A DNA stretch of 64,000 nt from Thermococcus henrietii (lineage in GTDB: Archaea; Methanobacteriota_B; Thermococci; Thermococcales; Thermococcaceae): assembly GCF_900198835.1 (NCBI RefSeq), contig NZ_LT900021.1:1736001-1800000 (forward strand), given 5' to 3'. The notes beneath the pieces were generated by a model. It did no database searches. It was not told the DNA's origin and was given only the letters and a program-made list of their open reading frames with translations. Both the position numbers and the translations under genes were made by a program. Below are positions 14,131 through 41,376 of this stretch, piece by piece (position 1 is the stretch's first letter; every line of letters starts with the position of its first letter).

Positions 14131-14794
<664 letters not shown>

Positions 14795-14851
14795 TATTAA
14801 GGTTGTGTGAGTTATCAGGTAATTAAAGCAAAACAATAAGAGGTATACAAT

Positions 14852-16339
14852 TCACCCAAGTTTCTTCCTCCGTTTTATCTCTTCAAGAGCCTTGTAGAAG
14901 TCCTCTTTTCTAACATGGAGTTCTTGAAAAACTCTCTTGGGTATCTGCTCCGCCTCGAAGTCAATCTTGCCCTCCTTGATGAGCCTTCTGAGCGCTATCA
15001 TTGCTGCCTCTCTCACAAGAGCTGCTAGGTCAGCACCGACGAACCCATGAGTCTTTTCGGCAATCTCATCAAGCATTTTGTCTACCAGCTTGGCGCGTAT
15101 CTCGGGGTAAAACTCGCGTTTGGATTTAAGAATTTCTTTCACTTCCTCCACGCTCTTCGCAGATTCGACGAGTTTAATTAGTTCCTTCACTTTCTTTGAA
15201 TCGAAAGTGTTCATGCTCTTAAGTTCTTTGAGAACCTTGAGAACCTCCAAAACAGTGCCTCTGTCGTATTCAGGTTCTAGTGGCATTCCCCTCGTGTGTA
15301 TTTGGAGTATCTCCTTCCTACCCCTCTTGTCCGGAGGCTTAAGCTCTATCACTTCTTCAAATTTCTCGTCTGTGAGAAGTTTCAAATTCTTTATCAATTC
15401 AAGGTTCGAGGTAGTTCCTATAACCCTAAATTGGTTGAACAGTAAGTTAACAGTTGCAACCACCATGTCTCTGTTGTCTGGGCTCAATAGGACTATGCTG
15501 TCAATGTCTTCAATAAGGACTAACTCACGGGCATCCTTAGAGAACTCTTTAACAATATCTATTGGAGATTCCTTTCTGAGAATCGAAACAAGTTCGTAAG
15601 GATTCGTTATAACAGCATTGGCTCCACTTTCATTGATAACTGCCCTGGCAAGTAAAGATTTGCCAGTCCCAGGCGGACCGTAGAGCAGGACACCCTTCGG
15701 GGGTTCGATTCCAAGCCTTTCGAAGAGCTCTGGGTGCTTGAGGGGAAGCTCGACCATCTCGCGAATCTTCTGAATCGCGTCGCTTAAGCCACCGATATCC
15801 TCATAGGTTATCCCTAAGACTGTTGTTTTGACATTTTCTTGAATTGGTTTCTCCCTGACTTCAAATTCTGTGAATTCAGCTATCTGAACTATACCAATGG
15901 GAGTTGTTGCTATGACTACAAATGTGAGTTCTTGGTCAGGAATTGTTATTTTAATGTAGTCTCCTCTGACGACGGGTCTGCCGACGAGTCTGCCGTGGAG
16001 CCACTCGACGAAGTCCCTTCCAAACCTAATCGGCTCGGTCGGGGCAACGATGACCTTTTTAGCCTCCTTAACGTCGGCCTTCCTAACCGTAACCTCGTCG
16101 CCGAGTCCGACGCCGGCGTTCTTCCTGATTGTTCCGTCCATTCTGATGATGTTGAGTCCCTCGTCCTCAGGATAAGCAGGCCAGACGACTGCGGCCGTGT
16201 TCTTGGTTCCGATAATCTCGACTATGTCGCCCGGCTGGACGTTGAGCTCGCGCATGGCGGTCCTGTCAATCCTGACGATTCCCCTACCAACGTCCCTCTG
16301 ATAAGCGGACGCAACCTTACGCTTAATTTCGTTGCTCAT
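14852..16339 (-). CDS. Degenerate single-AAA CDC48/VAT paralogue
   Basis: A 495-residue protein starting at MSNEIKRKVASAYQRDVGRG, with GGTGA five bases upstream. Residues 1-165 are a well-kept CDC48 N domain (double-psi barrel, VQPGDIVEIIG). The single AAA module has Walker A GPPGTGKSLLARAV, but Walker B reads LVLIEDIDSI, the segment between Walker B and sensor 1 is shortened, and the GRFDREI arginine-finger motif is replaced by DEKFEEVIELKPP. The D2 ring of normal CDC48 (about 800 residues) is missing; the protein ends after HVRKEDFYKALEEI. It may still bind nucleotide or act as an adaptor, but ring-type ATPase activity is doubtful. The middle is more AT-rich than its ends. Confidence 0.85.
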   Translation of the reverse strand: MSNEIKRKVASAYQRDVGRGIVRIDRTAMRELNVQPGDIVEIIGTKNTAAVVWPAYPEDEGLNIIRMDGTIRKNAGVGLGDEVTVRKADVKEAKKVIVAPTEPIRFGRDFVEWLHGRLVGRPVVRGDYIKITIPDQELTFVVIATTPIGIVQIAEFTEFEVREKPIQENVKTTVLGITYEDIGGLSDAIQKIREMVELPLKHPELFERLGIEPPKGVLLYGPPGTGKSLLARAVINESGANAVITNPYELVSILRKESPIDIVKEFSKDARELVLIEDIDSIVLLSPDNRDMVVATVNLLFNQFRVIGTTSNLELIKNLKLLTDEKFEEVIELKPPDKRGRKEILQIHTRGMPLEPEYDRGTVLEVLKVLKELKSMNTFDSKKVKELIKLVESAKSVEEVKEILKSKREFYPEIRAKLVDKMLDEIAEKTHGFVGADLAALVREAAMIALRRLIKEGKIDFEAEQIPKRVFQELHVRKEDFYKALEEIKRRKKLG

Positions 16340-16406
16340 TTTGCTCACCATAATTGAATAACCCTCAAAACTCTAAAATGTTTTGTAACCAACACGGGAA
16401 TTAGAT

Positions 16407-16445
16407 ACTTAACCTCCTCCGCGCTCAGCCTGACAAGCAAATTCT
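16407..16445 (-). pseudogene. Remnant of a DUF167 (UPF0235) gene 3' end
   Basis: Read on the minus strand this stretch encodes KNLLVRLSAEEVK, which matches the end of the intact DUF167 protein at 17968-18267 (KDLLVRVSAEEVKKRL). It is a decayed duplicate, lying back to back with the GAPDH remnant that follows. Confidence 0.7.
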
Positions 16446-16452
16446 TAAACAC

Positions 16453-16531
16453 GATTGAGGCAATATTTGAGCTCGCCGATAAGTGAGAGAGCATAAGGAA
16501 AACGAACAGGAGTTTGGGGATTTTGAAGTGA
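16453..16531 (+). pseudogene. Remnant of the GAPDH gene 3' end
   Basis: About 74 bases align at roughly 80% identity without gaps to the last codons of the gap gene, including the stop (14057-14130). The remnant has an in-frame TGA where the intact gene has a Trp codon. Together with the DUF167 remnant just before it, it marks an old duplication boundary. Confidence 0.8.
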
Positions 16532-16574
16532 TTCGAGCTTATTGAAGGGGCTTTTTCTCTTTTTTCTGTGATTC

Positions 16575-17942
16575 TCAGCGGATGGTATTTTCAAAGTCCT
16601 CCAAGTCCCAGACGAGCCAGCCCCCTTCTCTCATCTCCCCTTTTCCTTCGGCCCGCTTTGCCACGAGGCCATAAAACGATTCCCAGTCATCAAGCCCTAC
16701 AAGCTCTGCCTTTCTTTTCAAATCTTTCAAAATTCCTCTCGTTTCCCGCTCACTTAGCTCCTTCCACTTGACCTCAACGAAGAGCGCCCGCTTCTCCCGC
16801 TCGTTTAAAGCGACGAGGTCAATCTCCTCCCCCTTCCGCCACCATCTGCCGATTTTCGTAAACATGAAAGGTAGCTTCCTGGCTTTGTTCAGCTCGACGA
16901 GAAACTCTTTGGCGAGTTCCTCAAACCGCACGGAGTAGGCCCTCTGGAGGTTCTCAAAAACACTTTCGAAATCGGCCAGACCGAGCTCTATGGCGGTTCT
17001 GTTCGGATAAACCAGCGAGAACCACGTGAGCAGAAACGGGTCGTTTATCCGGTAGATGCCCCTCTTTTCCTTTCCTACCACTGGAACCTCTCTCCTCACG
17101 AAGCCCAGCCGGATTAGGGTTTCGAGGTAGGGGTATATCCTCCGCCCCTCGATGCCGAGGCTGTTTGCTATCTCTGTCGGCCGGTGTTTCCCACCCGCTA
17201 TTGTCGCGAGAATCGAAAAGTAAACCTTAAGCTCCCTCAACTCTCCTGCGAGGACTATGTAAGGCTCGTCATAGAAATAGCCGAGGGGGGAGAGAAACTC
17301 CTCTTCCACAAGCTCTTCAATGCTCCGTTTCCTCGATGCTATGGCGAGGTAAGCAGGAACGCCCCCAAGGAGGAGGTAGGCCCTGAGTCCGTAATCCCAA
17401 TCACCGAAGAACTCAATGGAGTGCCTGAAATTCAACGGTTTCAGCATGAAGCCCGCGGTTCTTCTGCCGTAGAGGGGCGAAGAATAGCTTAAAACCTCAT
17501 CTCGCATCATTCCGAGGAGCGAGCCGGAGAGAACAAGCATTACTGGTCTCCGCGAGAGCTCATGGTCCCACGCCCTCTGAAGGGCACTCAGGATTTCTCT
17601 GTCGGATTTAACCGCGTACGTAAATTCATCAAGGATTACCGCCGTTCGTTCGTTTATCTTGGAGGCGAGGTACTTGAAGAGCGGGAACCAGTCCGAGAAG
17701 CTGAGGAACAGTTCATCCCCGAAAAACTCCGCGAGTTCCTTCCTGAGGGCCTCTATCTGCCCCTCTTTAGTGCCCTCAGTAAACGTATGGAAAAATACCT
17801 TCTTCCCCTTTGCAAACTCACTCAGAAGCCTTGTTTTCCCAACTCTCCTTCTGCCGTACACCACGACAAAGGACGGCGTGTTTTCCCATTCCCTCTCCAG
17901 CAGGTCCAGTTCGTCTTTCCTGTCAATGAATTTACCAATCAT
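16575..17942 (-). CDS. Stand-alone archaeal AAA ATPase (PF01637/DUF234 type)
   Basis: A 455-residue protein: ATPase domain with Walker A YGRRRVGKTRLL (residues 29-40), Walker B AVILDEFTYA and sensor-like VLVLSGS; a winged helix (RPTEIANSLGIEGRRIYPYLETLIRLGFV); and a C-terminal nuclease-like DUF234 domain with EIDLVALN and LFVEVKWKE, a PD-(D/E)xK-like pattern. Family roles are unclear; links to mobile elements or toxin-like systems are suggested. No Shine-Dalgarno motif; the start codon lies inside a palindromic operator and the TATA box is about 25 bases upstream, so the mRNA is probably leaderless. Confidence 0.9.
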   Translation of the reverse strand: MIGKFIDRKDELDLLEREWENTPSFVVVYGRRRVGKTRLLSEFAKGKKVFFHTFTEGTKEGQIEALRKELAEFFGDELFLSFSDWFPLFKYLASKINERTAVILDEFTYAVKSDREILSALQRAWDHELSRRPVMLVLSGSLLGMMRDEVLSYSSPLYGRRTAGFMLKPLNFRHSIEFFGDWDYGLRAYLLLGGVPAYLAIASRKRSIEELVEEEFLSPLGYFYDEPYIVLAGELRELKVYFSILATIAGGKHRPTEIANSLGIEGRRIYPYLETLIRLGFVRREVPVVGKEKRGIYRINDPFLLTWFSLVYPNRTAIELGLADFESVFENLQRAYSVRFEELAKEFLVELNKARKLPFMFTKIGRWWRKGEEIDLVALNEREKRALFVEVKWKELSERETRGILKDLKRKAELVGLDDWESFYGLVAKRAEGKGEMREGGWLVWDLEDFENTIR

Positions 17943-17966
17943 GATTAGTACTAATCATGATTAGTA
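17933..17966 (-). promoter_or_regulatory. Tandem palindromic operator over the ATPase start codon
   Basis: TACTAATCATGATTAGTA (17949-17966) is a perfect 18-bp palindrome. A second copy with one mismatch, TACCAATCATGATTAGTA, occupies 17933-17950 with a 16-bp period and contains the ATG. The TATA-like CTTAAATACT overlaps the distal copy. This arrangement predicts tight repression, possibly by the gene's own product. Confidence 0.65.
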
Positions 17967-17967
17967 T

Positions 17968-18267
17968 TTAAGACTTCTGGTTAAATCCCAGCCTCTTCTT
18001 TACCTCCTCAGCACTCACCCTGACCAGCAAGTCCTTCTCCCTGCTCGTCTCCCCGCGAACCAGCTCGACTTCAGCCCCAAGGACCTTTGAGAGGAACTTA
18101 ACCAGCTCCTTGTTTGCCTTCCCTCCAACGGGCGGCGCCTTCACCCTGACCTTCAATCTCCCACGCCACTCGTCGATTCCCTCAATCTCGTTTTTCTTTG
18201 CCTTCGGCTGGACGTAAACGAGAAGGAGCGTCCCGTCTTTAGTCTCCTTCAAGAACTCCGCGCTCAT
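17968..18267 (-). CDS. DUF167/UPF0235 family protein
   Basis: A 99-residue protein of the YggU family (LLVYVQPKAKKNEIEGI, then LKVRVKAPPVGGKANKELVKFLSKVLG, the signature block). Function unknown across bacteria and archaea. Start ATG 18267 follows GAGGTG and overlaps the upstream DUF402 stop by ATGA. A decayed partial copy lies at 16407-16445. Confidence 0.92.
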   Translation of the reverse strand: MSAEFLKETKDGTLLLVYVQPKAKKNEIEGIDEWRGRLKVRVKAPPVGGKANKELVKFLSKVLGAEVELVRGETSREKDLLVRVSAEEVKKRLGFNQKS

Positions 18268-18767
18268 CTTAACACCTCCCCGTACTTCCACACGATTTCG
18301 GGTGGAAACTCACCGCGCTCGGCCTTTTTGAGTATCTCCCTCGCGACGGAGTAAGCGAAATCGAAAGTCTCTCTGTCAATCAGCCCGTAGTTGAGGGCCA
18401 TCTCAAGTTCGTCCTCGTCGAGGAGGAACGCTCCCCCGTCCGGGAAGATGAATATGTCAAGGAAGAGGTCGAGCATCTCTAAGGTGTTCCCATTGCGCTT
18501 TGTGTAGGCGAGAACATCAACGTAGAGCCCCTTGAAGTTGCCCCGCCCATCATAGACCTTTAAGAGGTCGTAGTTCTTTCCGATGAAGGCAAAGTAGAGC
18601 ATGGTGTAGCCGTTTTTAATGACTTCCACGCCGTTCACCCTCAGCGGGGCGAGCATTCCCTCGAACTTGGCTTTGGCGACGATTACGTCTCCTAAATCGG
18701 CTACAACCTCATCGTCCCGTTCGAGAACCCTGTTTGGAATCCGCCGGTAGATTAGGTGGATTTTCAT
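18264..18767 (-). CDS. DUF402 family protein
   Basis: A 167-residue protein with a DUF402 barrel (YFAFIGKNYDLLKVYDGRGNFKGLYVDV, then the acidic block DLFLDIFIFPDGGAFLLDEDELE). Relatives bind RNA or hydrolyse nucleotides at a metal site formed by such Asp residues. Translationally coupled to DUF167. Start ATG 18767 follows GGTGGGAG; the GTG three codons upstream lies inside that motif. Confidence 0.82.
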   Translation of the reverse strand: MKIHLIYRRIPNRVLERDDEVVADLGDVIVAKAKFEGMLAPLRVNGVEVIKNGYTMLYFAFIGKNYDLLKVYDGRGNFKGLYVDVLAYTKRNGNTLEMLDLFLDIFIFPDGGAFLLDEDELEMALNYGLIDRETFDFAYSVAREILKKAERGEFPPEIVWKYGEVLR

Positions 18768-35684: not shown

Positions 35685-36518
35685 TTATTTCACCTTAAGG
35701 GTAGATTGTATGTTTGCTATGTCGTTTTCCTTTTCTTTAATTAGTTTTTGTATCGTGTAATCTTTTATAATAACCCCACATACCTCTTTCGCAATTTCTT
35801 GTCTCAAACTGGCACTCTCGGGAACTGGCACAGGTAAATGTTTAAGTTGCTCCCATTTTACTCTGTGCCTACCTGTTACTCCCTTCATTAGCCCTTTTAC
35901 GTATGATCTGACAAAGTTACTCCGTAGATATATCCATAGATACCATGAGGTAACCATCTTAGAATCAATTTGTAAATTAACATCGGGATACTCATTCTCA
36001 ATAAGTTCAATTAATTGTTTGTCTTCTATTATTTTCTTTTTTGGCCTTAGCACCATGAACTCTTTGGTCACATAATGATCATTGAGATCTTCGGGTATAA
36101 TAGCTACTGCACCGTTAACGATGTCTATTCTGGATAACACAACATCCCATGCTGAAACTTTGAGCAGAGTTGGATATTTTGTTGTTATTGGACTCATCCG
36201 TGATTTTTTGTGGAGCTTTTCACTTCTCCTAATAGCTTTTCCTTCAAATGTTATTGAGAGTAAAGGTATCCCCTCTTTCCCCTGAATCGTGCTAGTCTTA
36301 ACGACATTATTCACATTCCTAATGACATGTCCTAGAGGTAGTATTTCAAAGCCTAATTCTTCCCAATCCTTTTTGAGGTCATCTAATTGTTTTTTTCTGA
36401 TAACTAACTCCGCATGTTTTACATCAATCCTACCCAATTCACGTAGCGTATCCCACTCAATCAAAAAAATTAATGGGGAATCAGAGAGCAATTGGAATTC
36501 TAGAGCATCCTCTTTCAT
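35685..36518 (-). CDS. Type I-like restriction specificity (S) subunit
   Basis: A 277-residue protein with one clear target-recognition domain whose end VTGRHRVKWEQLKHLPVPVP is the conserved HsdS pattern, followed by a helical spacer (LRQEIAKEVCGVIIKDYTIQKLIKEKENDI). Classical HsdS has two such domains in about 400 residues; this single-domain form would need to dimerise or recognise a half site. Start ATG 36518 overlaps the methyltransferase stop by ATGA, so the two are coupled. It should direct the adjacent nuclease-methyltransferase. Confidence 0.85.
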   Translation of the reverse strand: MKEDALEFQLLSDSPLIFLIEWDTLRELGRIDVKHAELVIRKKQLDDLKKDWEELGFEILPLGHVIRNVNNVVKTSTIQGKEGIPLLSITFEGKAIRRSEKLHKKSRMSPITTKYPTLLKVSAWDVVLSRIDIVNGAVAIIPEDLNDHYVTKEFMVLRPKKKIIEDKQLIELIENEYPDVNLQIDSKMVTSWYLWIYLRSNFVRSYVKGLMKGVTGRHRVKWEQLKHLPVPVPESASLRQEIAKEVCGVIIKDYTIQKLIKEKENDIANIQSTLKVK

Positions 36519-38215
36519 TTTGAATCCCCCCAAAATCCAATGTCTTTCACGAATTTTCTCCACTCTTGGACAATTATAGGAAGGTCGTTCTTTGAGATTC
36601 TTTTTCCAGATGTGTCAAATCCAACAAATTCAGCCTCAGCCATGAATACCTTTTTCGTTTCTGGTATCTCTGGACTAGGTTTCTGTATTATCAAAATATT
36701 AGTTTTTGAATTGGCTCCATAAGGCTTGAAGGCGTCCCTAGGTAGGCTTATAATTCCTCTAACGTAGGCATTATTGTTTAGGAATTCAATGAATCTCTCA
36801 TTGTTTTCTAATGCATCCTCTGACATTATTGTTACCATTAATCCTCCCGGCTTAAGAAACTCTAGCCCTCTCTCAACAAACAAGACTTGGGATAATTGTC
36901 TAGGTAGTCCCTTTCCTGTTTCGAATTGGTCCAAGATTTTCCTGTCCTCTTCATACAGACCCAGTGGGGGATTTGTTAGTATAATATCAAACATTTCCTT
37001 CTCTAATCCATAAGACTTTAGTTCCTTCCAGGGGGCTAAAGCATTTGCTATTTTTATATTACTATGTGAATCATCACTGAGAATCATTGAAGAAATAGCA
37101 GCTTGGGCTACTTCTGGTGAAACTTCAATTCCGTAAATTTGATAATGGGCGACTTCAAATAGCCTCTCTCTAAGTGCTATTGAATTTAGGCCATACTTCT
37201 TGATCATCTTTTCCCTCACATAAAATAACGAGTACAATAAGAAACCTCCAGTACCACAAGCGGGATCTAGTATTTTATGGTCCTCTCCAGGATCCGCAAT
37301 CTCTACCATGGCCTTAGTAATTTCTCTAGGCGTAAAATACTGACCGAGATCTCCACGCATATTAGAATCCAGAAAATGCTGGTATGCTTCTCCTTTTATG
37401 TCTAGATCAGTATCCCTAAGGGAATATTTGCCAAGTAGTTTTGCTATTTTGAAAAGGGTCAGATCATTTGATACTTCCAAATCTTCCGGGAAAATACTTG
37501 GTTCCCGTTTTCTAGCACGTGAGTATAACTTTCTTATTCTGTCCGCAACATCCGTTATGCTCTCTGCATACCCAGCTTGGAATGAATAATACTCTTCTCT
37601 TCCAGTAGTTTTCTCATCATAAACTTTTGCATATATTAACCGTGAAGCTACCTTAAAAGCTTCATGTAGTGCTTTCTTTTCGACATTTCTAATTATATCA
37701 TGGACATGCTTCATTAACTTCTTAAATTCATCTGAATCTCTGATTGGAACTAGAGGCATTCCAATACCATTCCCATATTTCAGTTTTTTCCCGTACTTGT
37801 GGGCCAATGGGATATCAGATATTGGTTCTTCAACATGAGTGTCTTTGGTGTATTGGATGTACACAACTTCAAAGTCATCCCCATTAGTCCATTTTGCATA
37901 TTTTGCGCCTAAAGATACCGCATATGAAATAGCTTGCTTTAGTCCCTTTTTCTTATCAGGTGATTTAGTCTCTATCACTATTAGGGGAACCTTCTTAGAG
38001 GTGGACTTGTAAACCACTATATCAGCCTCTTTAATCGAAGAGCCCATTTGAACTGGAACAAAAGCTTCTATCTGGGTAGGATCATATCCGTACTCATTTA
38101 CCAACGTTTTTATTTCCTTTATCATTACGGTTTTTTCTTTTTTTATTCCTTTCTTTGATGCTAGAGAATCAACTTTTTTAATCAGCTTGTCTAATGTACT
38201 CCCCCTAACAACCAT
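36515..38215 (-). CDS. Restriction nuclease-N6-adenine methyltransferase fusion
   Basis: A 566-residue protein. Residues 40-120 resemble the HsdR N-terminal nuclease domain with a PD-(D/E)xK pattern: D65 in EADIVVY, E82 and K84 in IVIETKSPD, Q94 in the QxxxY-like LKQAISYA. Residues 270-500 are a gamma N6-adenine methyltransferase: SAM motif DPACGTGG (317-324) and catalytic NPPL (415-418). There is no SF2 translocase, so it is not a full type I enzyme; with a separate S subunit it resembles BcgI-like type IIB/IIG systems. Start follows GGTGGGAACTC. Confidence 0.88.
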   Translation of the reverse strand: MVVRGSTLDKLIKKVDSLASKKGIKKEKTVMIKEIKTLVNEYGYDPTQIEAFVPVQMGSSIKEADIVVYKSTSKKVPLIVIETKSPDKKKGLKQAISYAVSLGAKYAKWTNGDDFEVVYIQYTKDTHVEEPISDIPLAHKYGKKLKYGNGIGMPLVPIRDSDEFKKLMKHVHDIIRNVEKKALHEAFKVASRLIYAKVYDEKTTGREEYYSFQAGYAESITDVADRIRKLYSRARKREPSIFPEDLEVSNDLTLFKIAKLLGKYSLRDTDLDIKGEAYQHFLDSNMRGDLGQYFTPREITKAMVEIADPGEDHKILDPACGTGGFLLYSLFYVREKMIKKYGLNSIALRERLFEVAHYQIYGIEVSPEVAQAAISSMILSDDSHSNIKIANALAPWKELKSYGLEKEMFDIILTNPPLGLYEEDRKILDQFETGKGLPRQLSQVLFVERGLEFLKPGGLMVTIMSEDALENNERFIEFLNNNAYVRGIISLPRDAFKPYGANSKTNILIIQKPSPEIPETKKVFMAEAEFVGFDTSGKRISKNDLPIIVQEWRKFVKDIGFWGDSK

Positions 38216-38528
38216 GAGTTCCCACCTTAATTAACATCCAGCTTCACATTTTAATGCTTTTCTCTCGGATTATATGGTTAGTGACTTCTTAATACCCTCT
38301 TCTCTATATTCTGCTAGTTATCGCTAACTAAGAACATTTTATCTTAGTAGTCGTCTAATTTACACCGTGTTTTTGAACACCACATCCTTCTTTTCCCCCT
38401 TTTATACTTTTATACTATCCTTTACTTATACCCTCGTCCCTCCTTAAGAAGGGATTAACCCATGCTGACTTTGTTACTGTCATCACCGTCAAAAAATTGG
38501 GAAAAACTGGAGGGCCTGATGACAACCC
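38216..38528. promoter_or_regulatory. Non-coding gap holding the R-M promoter and a palindrome
   Basis: No gene seen. TAGTTA-TCGC-TAACTA at 38315-38330 is a perfect inverted repeat about 100 bases upstream of the nuclease-methyltransferase start. Several AT-rich TATA-like boxes lie between. The plus strand is pyrimidine-rich here, continuing the strand bias seen at 39990-40200. Confidence 0.45.
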
Positions 38529-39683
38529 TCACATTGCACTTTCCACTTCGGGTTCTGTTGTCTCGATGCCGTCCCACATTTCAAAGGGCTGAAATCCAAG
38601 TACGTTCTGGTCTCTGTCCACCACCAATACTCCTTTGCTATCAATTTCGAGTGTTTTAATTCTCCTTCCTTCGTCGCTATACACAACATACAAAATCTCC
38701 TGGATGATTTGTTTCATGAATCGTTTGTTTTCTGGCGTGTAATAAAGTGGCTTGTTCACAAAGACTCTCAATATTTCGATACCATATTTCTTTTCAAATT
38801 CATCTAACTTTACTTCCAGCATGTCCACCTGCTCTCCCGCATGAAGCCATACGTAAACTTTTCTGAATCCGGATAAATGTTTCAAGGCCTCAACATGCAT
38901 CTGATATTGTATTTCCGCCTCTCTCTTTCCACATAGGATTTCCCATCCTGTTTTTATCAAATTTCTACTAAGCTTTCTTCTCTTTCTGCCTGGTATTCTT
39001 CCACTCTTTACTCGGGAAAGGATTATATCGAGCCCCTCATCGCTAACAGTTGCTGGTAATTTTCTTGCTTGCTCCTCCACGTCGTATTGGCCAGAATAGT
39101 GTTCCCAGAAATTTTTGAGTTCAATTACAATTAGTGTTCTACTGCTCCAATCTATTACAAGAACATCTGCTATTTTATCGGCATCTGATTTTCTGCCCCT
39201 CCTCTCTTTCTCATCTGTTCCTGGCCTCGTTCGTATTTTGTAAATAGGAAGTACAATGATGTCTTTGCCTCTCTCTATATGTTCCTCTAACATTTCTTCC
39301 AGACTCTCATATACCAAGTCTTCTAAGAACCGTCCTTTCCAAAACGCGGTTTTGTTCTTGGGAAGCTCTCGATTTTCAATACGTTTTCTTAAGGCTTCAT
39401 AGAACTCTTCCTTTATCTCAGAATACATGTCTAAAATATCGCTTATGTAATGGTACATAGTTTTCGTGTCTTTTATCTCCACTTCCATTTCTTTATCTCT
39501 CTGGAACTCTTCAATCATTTCCTCGGGTAACATTCCCTCTCTTAACATCTCCAGCATTGCATGAACTAACACTTCCCAATGTTTGAACATCTTGTGTCTA
39601 TATCTTTTCTTAACACATTCTTCAAGTTCTTCTCTACTCCCTTCTCTAATCCTACTCTCCACTAACCCTCCACTTCTAACCAT
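38529..39683 (-). CDS. Unassigned PD-(D/E)xK nuclease-like protein
   Basis: A 384-residue protein I do not recognise. Residues 20-105 are charged helices. Residues 115-200 carry a convincing nuclease core: a helix with Glu (FLEDLVYESLEEML), D173 in KIADVLVID and E188/K190 in LIVIELKNF, the D-ExK pattern of PD-(D/E)xK enzymes. The C-terminal half is mixed alpha/beta with KVYVWLHAGEQ. No transmembrane segment, zinc site or ATPase motif. It lies just upstream of the R-M pair on the same strand but has its own Shine-Dalgarno motif (GAGGTGG), so it could be a second restriction enzyme, a defence effector or an element-maintenance nuclease. Confidence 0.8.
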   Translation of the reverse strand: MVRSGGLVESRIREGSREELEECVKKRYRHKMFKHWEVLVHAMLEMLREGMLPEEMIEEFQRDKEMEVEIKDTKTMYHYISDILDMYSEIKEEFYEALRKRIENRELPKNKTAFWKGRFLEDLVYESLEEMLEEHIERGKDIIVLPIYKIRTRPGTDEKERRGRKSDADKIADVLVIDWSSRTLIVIELKNFWEHYSGQYDVEEQARKLPATVSDEGLDIILSRVKSGRIPGRKRRKLSRNLIKTGWEILCGKREAEIQYQMHVEALKHLSGFRKVYVWLHAGEQVDMLEVKLDEFEKKYGIEILRVFVNKPLYYTPENKRFMKQIIQEILYVVYSDEGRRIKTLEIDSKGVLVVDRDQNVLGFQPFEMWDGIETTEPEVESAM

Positions 39684-40314
39684 ACTACCACCTCAGGAAG
39701 GAGTTTTCAAGAAAAGGGGCCGCTGTATCCAGACTTCACTACCACAGTATTTTGAATCTTCTTGAATCTTATTTAATTAATAAGTTCCATTAATATCATC
39801 CCTGTCCGCTGGGCTTCATCCTTCTCATAAGGGAAAAGTGAAAGTGAGTGTGTATAGAGATGGTAGTGTAAGTAGAGTGTAGTATGTGTGAGTGTATGAG
39901 TCATAAGAAAGTTAAAGATTCATAGTGCCCCATATATAATAGGGAAGAAATAAAGCAAATTAGTTAATTTTCGTTTTTTGTTACCTTTAAATGCTTTATG
40001 GTTCTAATCACCCTATTCGTTACTTATATCCTCCTTTCTATACCTTACCGTCTTATTTAGTTCTTATACTCGTACTCACTCTCATTCCATCAATCCTTCT
40101 TACCTTGTTACTTATACTCCCTTTAACCCCTACTTCACCTTACTTACTATCCTCTCATTCTATCTCTTTCTACTTACTCTCTTCCTCTCTTATCTACCAT
40201 TCATTAAACACCTACATGGATATACGTTCCAAAATTTCAAATATAGGAAGGGGACAGTGAAACCATTCGAGAAATGGTCGAATGAAAACTTGAAAGAAAG
40301 TGAGAATTTGGAAT
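39684..40314. other. Non-coding stretch with strong strand asymmetry, possible replication origin
   Basis: About 39830-39910 the plus strand is almost pure G, A and T (repeated GTGTA and GAGTG words); about 39990-40200 it becomes almost pure C, T and A (ACTTAC, CTCTTC words). The switch falls near 39960 beside an AT-rich patch. An 89-codon open frame at 39991-40260 is a by-product of the pyrimidine bias. Such composition inversions often mark plasmid origins; no iterons were identified here. Confidence 0.45.
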
Positions 40315-41231
40315 TCAAAAAACAACCTTCTTCCCCATGATTTCTGGGAGGGTGGGATTCAAAGATTGTTCAAGGTACTTGTATGAACGAGCGTATTCCC
40401 TTTTGGCCTGGTTGAATAAGTCGAGATAGTGAAGACTCATTATCGAACCCGTCGAATGGCCGACCATGTACTTAACCACACTCTCCGGAACTCGGGCCTC
40501 GAACATCTTGTTGATGAACCATTTTCTGGCGTACTTGAGACGAACGCCCTTCCTTTTGGATAGGTAGGAGCGTAGAGTTACGTAGGTAGTGTTGGGAAAT
40601 GGTTTGAGGAGTGAGGCAACGTAGGGAGGCATGAAGGCAACGAAGGAGTTTTTAGTTCTGCGAGTCCATGATAGTTGGTAGTATGAGATGGTGGTTCTGT
40701 TTACCTTTTCCGTCTTTAGACGGTTCTCATCGAATTCCGTTACTATCTTCAATGCTTCCTTTATCCTTATCCCTCCAAAAACCACCAACAACGCAACCAA
40801 TAACGCATCTTCCCTCTTGCTTACCGCTCTAAGCCAGCTCTGAATCTCATCGTCCGTCGGGAAGTACAAATCCGGCTTTGCATCGTGAGTCTTAAGGAGT
40901 CTCTTCAACTTTATGGCCGTCTCCTCCGACATCCAGTCGTTTTCAAGGTAGAAGTTTATCAGGTTCCTTATCGCCAAACTCAAATGATGCTTTCCGACCT
41001 TCGTGTTGTCCATCAACCTTCTCAAATCCTCGATTCCCCAAATCTCGGTGTCTCCAAAATATCTATCAAGGGAAGAGATATACTTCCTTCTTGTCTCCTC
41101 TGTTACTCTATTCTCAAGCCATTTTGCGAATTCTCTTCTGATAGGGCTGTATATCAAAATTGGAGCCCCTGGAGAGTCCGTGGGCGTTAGCCCGCCAGGG
41201 TTCAAATCCCTGCCCCGGCGCCAAACTCCTT
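40315..41231 (-). CDS. IntC: catalytic part of partitioned SSV-type tyrosine integrase
   Basis: The catalytic domain is complete: Arg in VVFGGIRIKEALKI, the KYARKWF box (HxxR-like), then YMVGHSTGSIMSLHYLDL with the nucleophilic Tyr. The N-terminal core-binding part starts FAKWLENRVTEETRRKYISSL. Its frame enters from the right att core, encoding the same GVWRRGRDLNPGG as intN. Alone it lacks the natural start and N-terminal domain. Integrases of this kind are inactivated by their own integration. Confidence 0.9.
41168..41223 (+). pseudogene. 3'-half remnant of tRNA-Ser(GGA)
   Basis: Matches the intact tRNA from the anticodon loop through CCA with one three-base difference in the variable loop (TTA for CAT). 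The 5' half is absent. It is the displaced 3' half of the chromosomal tRNA left at the far end of the integrated element. Confidence 0.9.
41190..41231 (+). repeat. attR core, 42 bp
   Basis: Identical to 34887-34928; right boundary of the integrated element. The two flanks diverge immediately after the shared CTCCTT. Confidence 0.92.
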
Positions 41232-41376
41232 TTGTCATCTCCCCTCATTGGGGCTGTTCTCGTGTGGTGATTTACTGAGCAAATACCAAACACAGAAAAG
41301 TACGTTTTCGGATTCAACATTCTCAATGGAGTGGAGTTAATAAGTGTGAAGATAAAAGAACAGAGACCAAGTGGAC

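Follow-up and report, generated by a model that had tools for sequence, protein, structure and literature searches.

A mosaic CDC48-derived protein with an eroded AAA core at a variable chromosomal site in Thermococcus henrietii

Gene X, at 14852-16339 on the minus strand of the window (the whole 64,000-nucleotide stretch analysed here, C1:1736001-1800000 in a complete genome of 2.16 Mb), encodes an intact CDC48 N-D1 protein of 495 amino acids with zero internal stops, and is a mosaic of the genome's two complete CDC48 genes. The first-pass annotation of this DNA had recognised a CDC48 paralogue with one eroded AAA ring; the two-parent mosaic, newly recognised here, is an addition to that reading, as are the variable chromosomal site and a probable lateral arrival. 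We put at about even the chance that X is a laterally mobile CDC48 paralogue acting through its N domain, as a decoy, a brake or an adaptor.

The reading frame of X runs from an ATG at 16339 (MSNE...), immediately preceded by GGTGAG, to a stop codon at 14852-14854 (minus strand); an alternative ATG at 16351 would make the protein four codons longer. Pfam recovers CDC48_N (3.7e-34) and CDC48_2 (3e-13), both of which exceed the cut-off, as well as AAA (1.6e-14) and AAA_lid_3 (1.6e-16). The reading frame stops after the D1 lid, and the absence of D2 reported at first pass holds for protein and DNA alike: no second AAA domain was found by Pfam, and no D2 remnant was found when the DNA of the locus was compared with CDC48-A and CDC48-B. 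Overall identity to the genome's own CDC48-A is 66%, far from chance. Archaeal CDC48/VAT (TIGR01243) and the N-D1 half of p97 are the best sequence and fold matches of X, which shares with them the N domain, linker, Walker A, lid and domain order. Unlike them, however, X has no D2 and a degenerate core: it scores 479 bits with the TIGR01243 profile, whose curated cut-off is 802.65, has one ring in place of two (D1 and D2), and lacks the catalytic motifs (Walker B DE, sensor-1 N, arginine fingers and pore loop). It is therefore better described as a CDC48-derived pseudo-AAA protein than as CDC48 proper.

The mosaic was mapped by codon-by-codon alignment of X with the two full-length CDC48 genes of the same genome, both of which encode two AAA domains: A, near C1 1952344, and B, near C1 1644065. 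The N domain (codons 7-127; 15959-16321, minus strand, as are all segments of X below) matches resident CDC48-A at 349 of 363 nucleotides (96%), compared with 340/363 for the A gene of the next best species, and its protein is 98% identical to CDC48-A. The linker (codons 128-178; 15806-15958) is old, AT-rich and A-type by tree, with saturated silent sites. Codons 179-227, up to the Walker A motif GPPGTGK (15659-15805), are B-type; over codons 181-222 the nucleotides agree with the genome's own CDC48-B at 117/126 (93%) and with the B gene of genome G024 at 121/126, and the amino acids are identical. There follows the eroded catalytic core (codons 228-332; 15344-15658), with 30% amino acid identity to A or B, and then a B-type stretch comprising the end of the core, an insert and the lid (codons 333-446; 15002-15343), in which silent sites are at or near saturation in codons 333-356 and 421-446. 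A short patch of 20 codons (447-466; 14942-15001) is closest to CDC48-A (54/60 nucleotides). Trees place the linker within the A clade (support 1.0) and codons 333-446 within the B clade (1.0), and group the N tract with the A genes of G000 (the genome carrying X), G024 and G043 (0.84), and codons 179-222 with the B genes of G000, G024 and G062 (0.95).

Divergence at third codon positions stands at 12/121 for the N tract, 34/51 for the linker and 75/104 for the core. Because the N tract and the core differ so strongly in this respect (Fisher p about 1e-22), a single origin, by one old fusion with later exchange absent, is ruled out. The linker (GC3 0.28) and the core (0.40) fall below the A gene (0.82), the B gene (0.74) and the N tract (0.72). 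Between the N tract and resident CDC48-A, 12 codons differ synonymously and 2 non-synonymously (dS 0.15, dN 0.007, dN/dS about 0.05), and these differences could partly reflect variation in the donor CDC48-A rather than selection on X. The mosaic suggests that gene conversion may match one domain to the host while the adjacent domain diverges freely. In G000 the DNA around Walker A is identical between CDC48-A (L039) and CDC48-B (L040) at 45/45 positions, with N domains at 55% and core proteins at 94% identity (110/117); likeness in the D1 core and Walker A beside such distant N domains suggests exchange between the full-length copies too. Several draft genomes have short frames in the CDC48-A/CDC48-B region.

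Erosion in X is confined to particular segments. Of the columns that 40 archaeal CDC48s conserve at 90% or more, X retains 30/30 in the N domain, 35/35 in codons 179-227, 23/79 in the core, 13/14 in codons 333-356 and 18/18 in the lid, with 5/15 in the tail toward the missing D2; outside the core and tail a single conserved column is lost. The sound N domain and Walker A described at first pass are borne out by these counts, GPPGTGK being retained despite the core losses. The Walker B sequence was also read correctly: IEDIDS corresponds to D277E/E278D relative to the 40 archaeal CDC48s. The shortened core without arginine fingers reflects a change of RFDR to KFEE (R326K/R329E) and in-frame losses of 3, 4 and 6 residues. 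Sensor 1 carries N311S, and the pore-loop motif KFYGES has become ILRKES. AlphaFold2, run on X with 41 sequences, predicts strands beta1-beta5 in AAA order at a mean pLDDT of 87.5 (72-87 for most blocks of the core, falling to 58 over residues 321-330), in a full-chain model that leans on CDC48 relatives, the D1 half alone reaching a pLDDT of 48.6 in an alignment-free prediction. The top Foldseek matches of the model are p97 N-D1 crystal structures, with whole-chain TM-scores of about 0.46-0.51.

X is known from one genome. Searches across 94 Thermococcaceae genomes, with the full-length protein, its N domain and its core as queries, found no orthologue of the core in the 93 others, nor was one found in 115 genomes of the phylum; in both sets the core has only equal weak matches, of about 30-35%, to ordinary CDC48s. 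N-domain loci number at most two per genome among the 94 Thermococcaceae, except for three in G000 and in G042. The reduced form whose conservation had been proposed as a check was thus not found in the other genomes searched as far as the core is concerned, although G042 does carry a different, AAA-free N-domain fusion. A scan of viral contigs did not find relatives, and phage records gave generic FtsH/AAA matches only. Those plasmid matches that were listed are CDC48-type proteins (36-41% identity); one further record, outside the listing, matches at 60-80%.

This restriction to a single genome is what would be expected if X were a dying relic, its ATPase core decayed and its intact appearance maintained by gene conversion from CDC48-A and CDC48-B, which would repeatedly overwrite parts of it. 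The diverged parts of X are AT-rich and the A and B tracts recent, as such a history would predict, and 4.5% of runs in a neutral simulation of the core end stop-free. However, silent sites at or near saturation show that codons 333-356 and 421-446 were not converted recently, and yet they keep 25 of 26 conserved columns; all indels in X are in-frame, and its 495 codons are free of stops. Nor does X show the usual signs of a pseudogene (stops, frameshifts or a uniform loss of constraint). Segment-wise comparison gives a dN of 0.07 in the lid (421-446, where silent sites are saturated) against 0.82 in the core. First- and second-position differences from CDC48-B amount to 9/100 in codons 333-356 and 421-446 combined, compared with 100/208 in the core (p about 1.6e-12), and the low figure implies that these segments were constrained while the core changed. 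Uniform neutral decay would fail to yield constrained segments beside an altered core, and decay of the whole gene is unlikely because the lid stayed constrained at 18/18 while the core kept 23/79. Asymmetry among codon positions within the core was set aside as proof of selection, since third positions there are already saturated. The suggestion that X is a product of decay held open is thus disfavoured by lid columns kept at saturated silent sites and a core that is in-frame and stop-free; that of a young decaying copy is favoured by the absence of orthologues in 93 other species and contradicted by the age of X at silent sites. We consider the relic explanation unlikely.

A Walker B of ED alone is no proof that X is inactive, because solved structures of the AAA family BCS1 read LLEDVD at that position; the joint loss of motifs is the stronger argument for lost activity. 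It is conceivable that X is still active as a non-canonical AAA ATPase and acts as a single-ring remodeller of new specificity; ED would then serve as in BCS1, and the arginine finger would be replaced by Lys326 or other residues. Walker A and the lid are intact, and the AAA beta-alpha order is predicted to be whole. But BCS1 retains RPGR, which X lacks, and the N domain of X is of the CDC48 type, not the BCS1 type; the sensor-1 Asn, both arginine fingers, the pore-loop motif and 56 of the 79 conserved core columns are gone, and this reading appears distinctly improbable. Less probable again, and indeed rather remote, is the idea that the core was never CDC48 but is a segment that recombination brought in from another AAA family. 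Its borders are sharp, its GC is lower, and it is equidistant from every CDC48 (about 30-35%); however, when the core is compared on its own with solved structures, a CDC48/VCP protein matches best, albeit weakly (E 0.016), and Pfam and NCBIfam gave no closer family.

The reading that we prefer is of X as an N-domain-dependent decoy or adaptor. X was assembled from Thermococcus CDC48-A pieces (N domain, linker) and CDC48-B pieces (D1 shell), and recent exchange or gene conversion left the N domain near-identical to that of resident CDC48-A, a match that selection may have favoured. The D1 ring retains Walker A and the lid, and its AAA fold is predicted to persist, but it has lost the residues for trans-hydrolysis and substrate threading, and with them, presumably, its turnover. 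X may then share cofactors or substrates with CDC48-A, binding them perhaps as an N-D1 ring loaded with ATP or as a subunit within CDC48 rings, and may hold or divert these partners without unfolding them. Since the partner-binding part is kept and the motor lost, X is probably a decoy or adaptor. The pseudo-ATPase idea of the first-pass annotation is compatible with all of the findings and gains support from the near-identical N domain and the AAA-free fusion in G042, though not from ED by itself. Degenerate CDC48-family rings have precedent in Pex1/Pex6, whose D1 rings have degenerate Walker motifs and arginine fingers (PMC5070193); unlike X, a copy known from one genome, these belong to eukaryotic family types and have a second ring. 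The partners of archaeal CDC48 are poorly known, and X, which retains the partner-binding half alone and almost identical to that of its host, would be a natural bait and ready-made trap for finding them, as well as a case in which the upkeep of a dead AAA ring in an archaeon could be tested.

The surroundings of X suggest how it may travel. It lies about 95 bases, from its stop, from an adjoining AbrB-type (VapB-like) antitoxin gene (14526-14756, minus strand), which pairs with a VapC-like PIN toxin gene (14131-14541, minus strand); the same pair occupies the same site in G032, together with other genes. Between X and a gene for an ATPase_2/DUF234 protein (16575-17942, minus strand; PADLOC candidate PDC-S27) stand two duplicated remnants, of the 3' end of a DUF167 gene (16408-16446) and then of the 3' end of a GAPDH gene (16459-16539). 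The GAPDH and DUF167 genes of G043 and G062 terminate within a few bases of each other, and in G024 and G065 the DUF234 ATPase alone, without X, separates them. The GAPDH-DUF167 gap (14131-18291 in the window) is thus a variable cargo site in Thermococcus, spanning 4 bases to about 4 kb and holding toxin-antitoxin and ATPase genes. The order in G000 reads as two tandem haplotypes, GAPDH-VapBC-X-DUF167 and GAPDH-ATPase-DUF167. Because the flanking-gene duplications and the empty sites in relatives fit such an event, the simplest reading suggests that X and VapBC arrived by recombination of transferred DNA, X perhaps travelling as cargo beside its toxin-antitoxin pair. Elsewhere in the window, 36518-41244 is a region of low GC with a DNA methylase/HsdR-N fusion (GC3 0.33), an uncharacterised gene and an archaeal phage-type integrase, and is probably an integrated element with a restriction-modification gene.

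The third N-domain gene of G042 (L172:7248-8024, 258 aa) resembles X in being a CDC48-A-derived extra copy near a toxin-like gene, the adjoining PIN-domain gene at L172:8095-8622. Unlike X, it joins a CDC48-A-type N domain (GC3 0.64) to an AT-rich C-terminus with AAA wholly absent, and its C-terminal module recurs, attached to varied N-terminal parts, in 41 of 94 Thermococcaceae genomes. The N domain of the fusion agrees with its own A gene at 417/480 positions and is about equally near the A genes of several species, and so represents an event independent of X. It is tempting to generalise that Thermococcus repeatedly makes mobile decoys or adaptors from the CDC48-A N domain, with a dead ring or a modular C-terminal domain, that these are swapped at variable toxin-antitoxin-flanked sites and matched to the host by gene conversion, and that they possibly serve as weapons or shields in conflicts with mobile elements; such a scheme is speculative, and we would lean against it. 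The G042 C-terminal module is carried by a multi-copy modular Thermococcaceae family (L185-L222) with no assigned function, and a gene beside VapBC at the X site of G032 (L144:10940-12022) carries the EPELEEFRQFLAEISGKK segment of this family.
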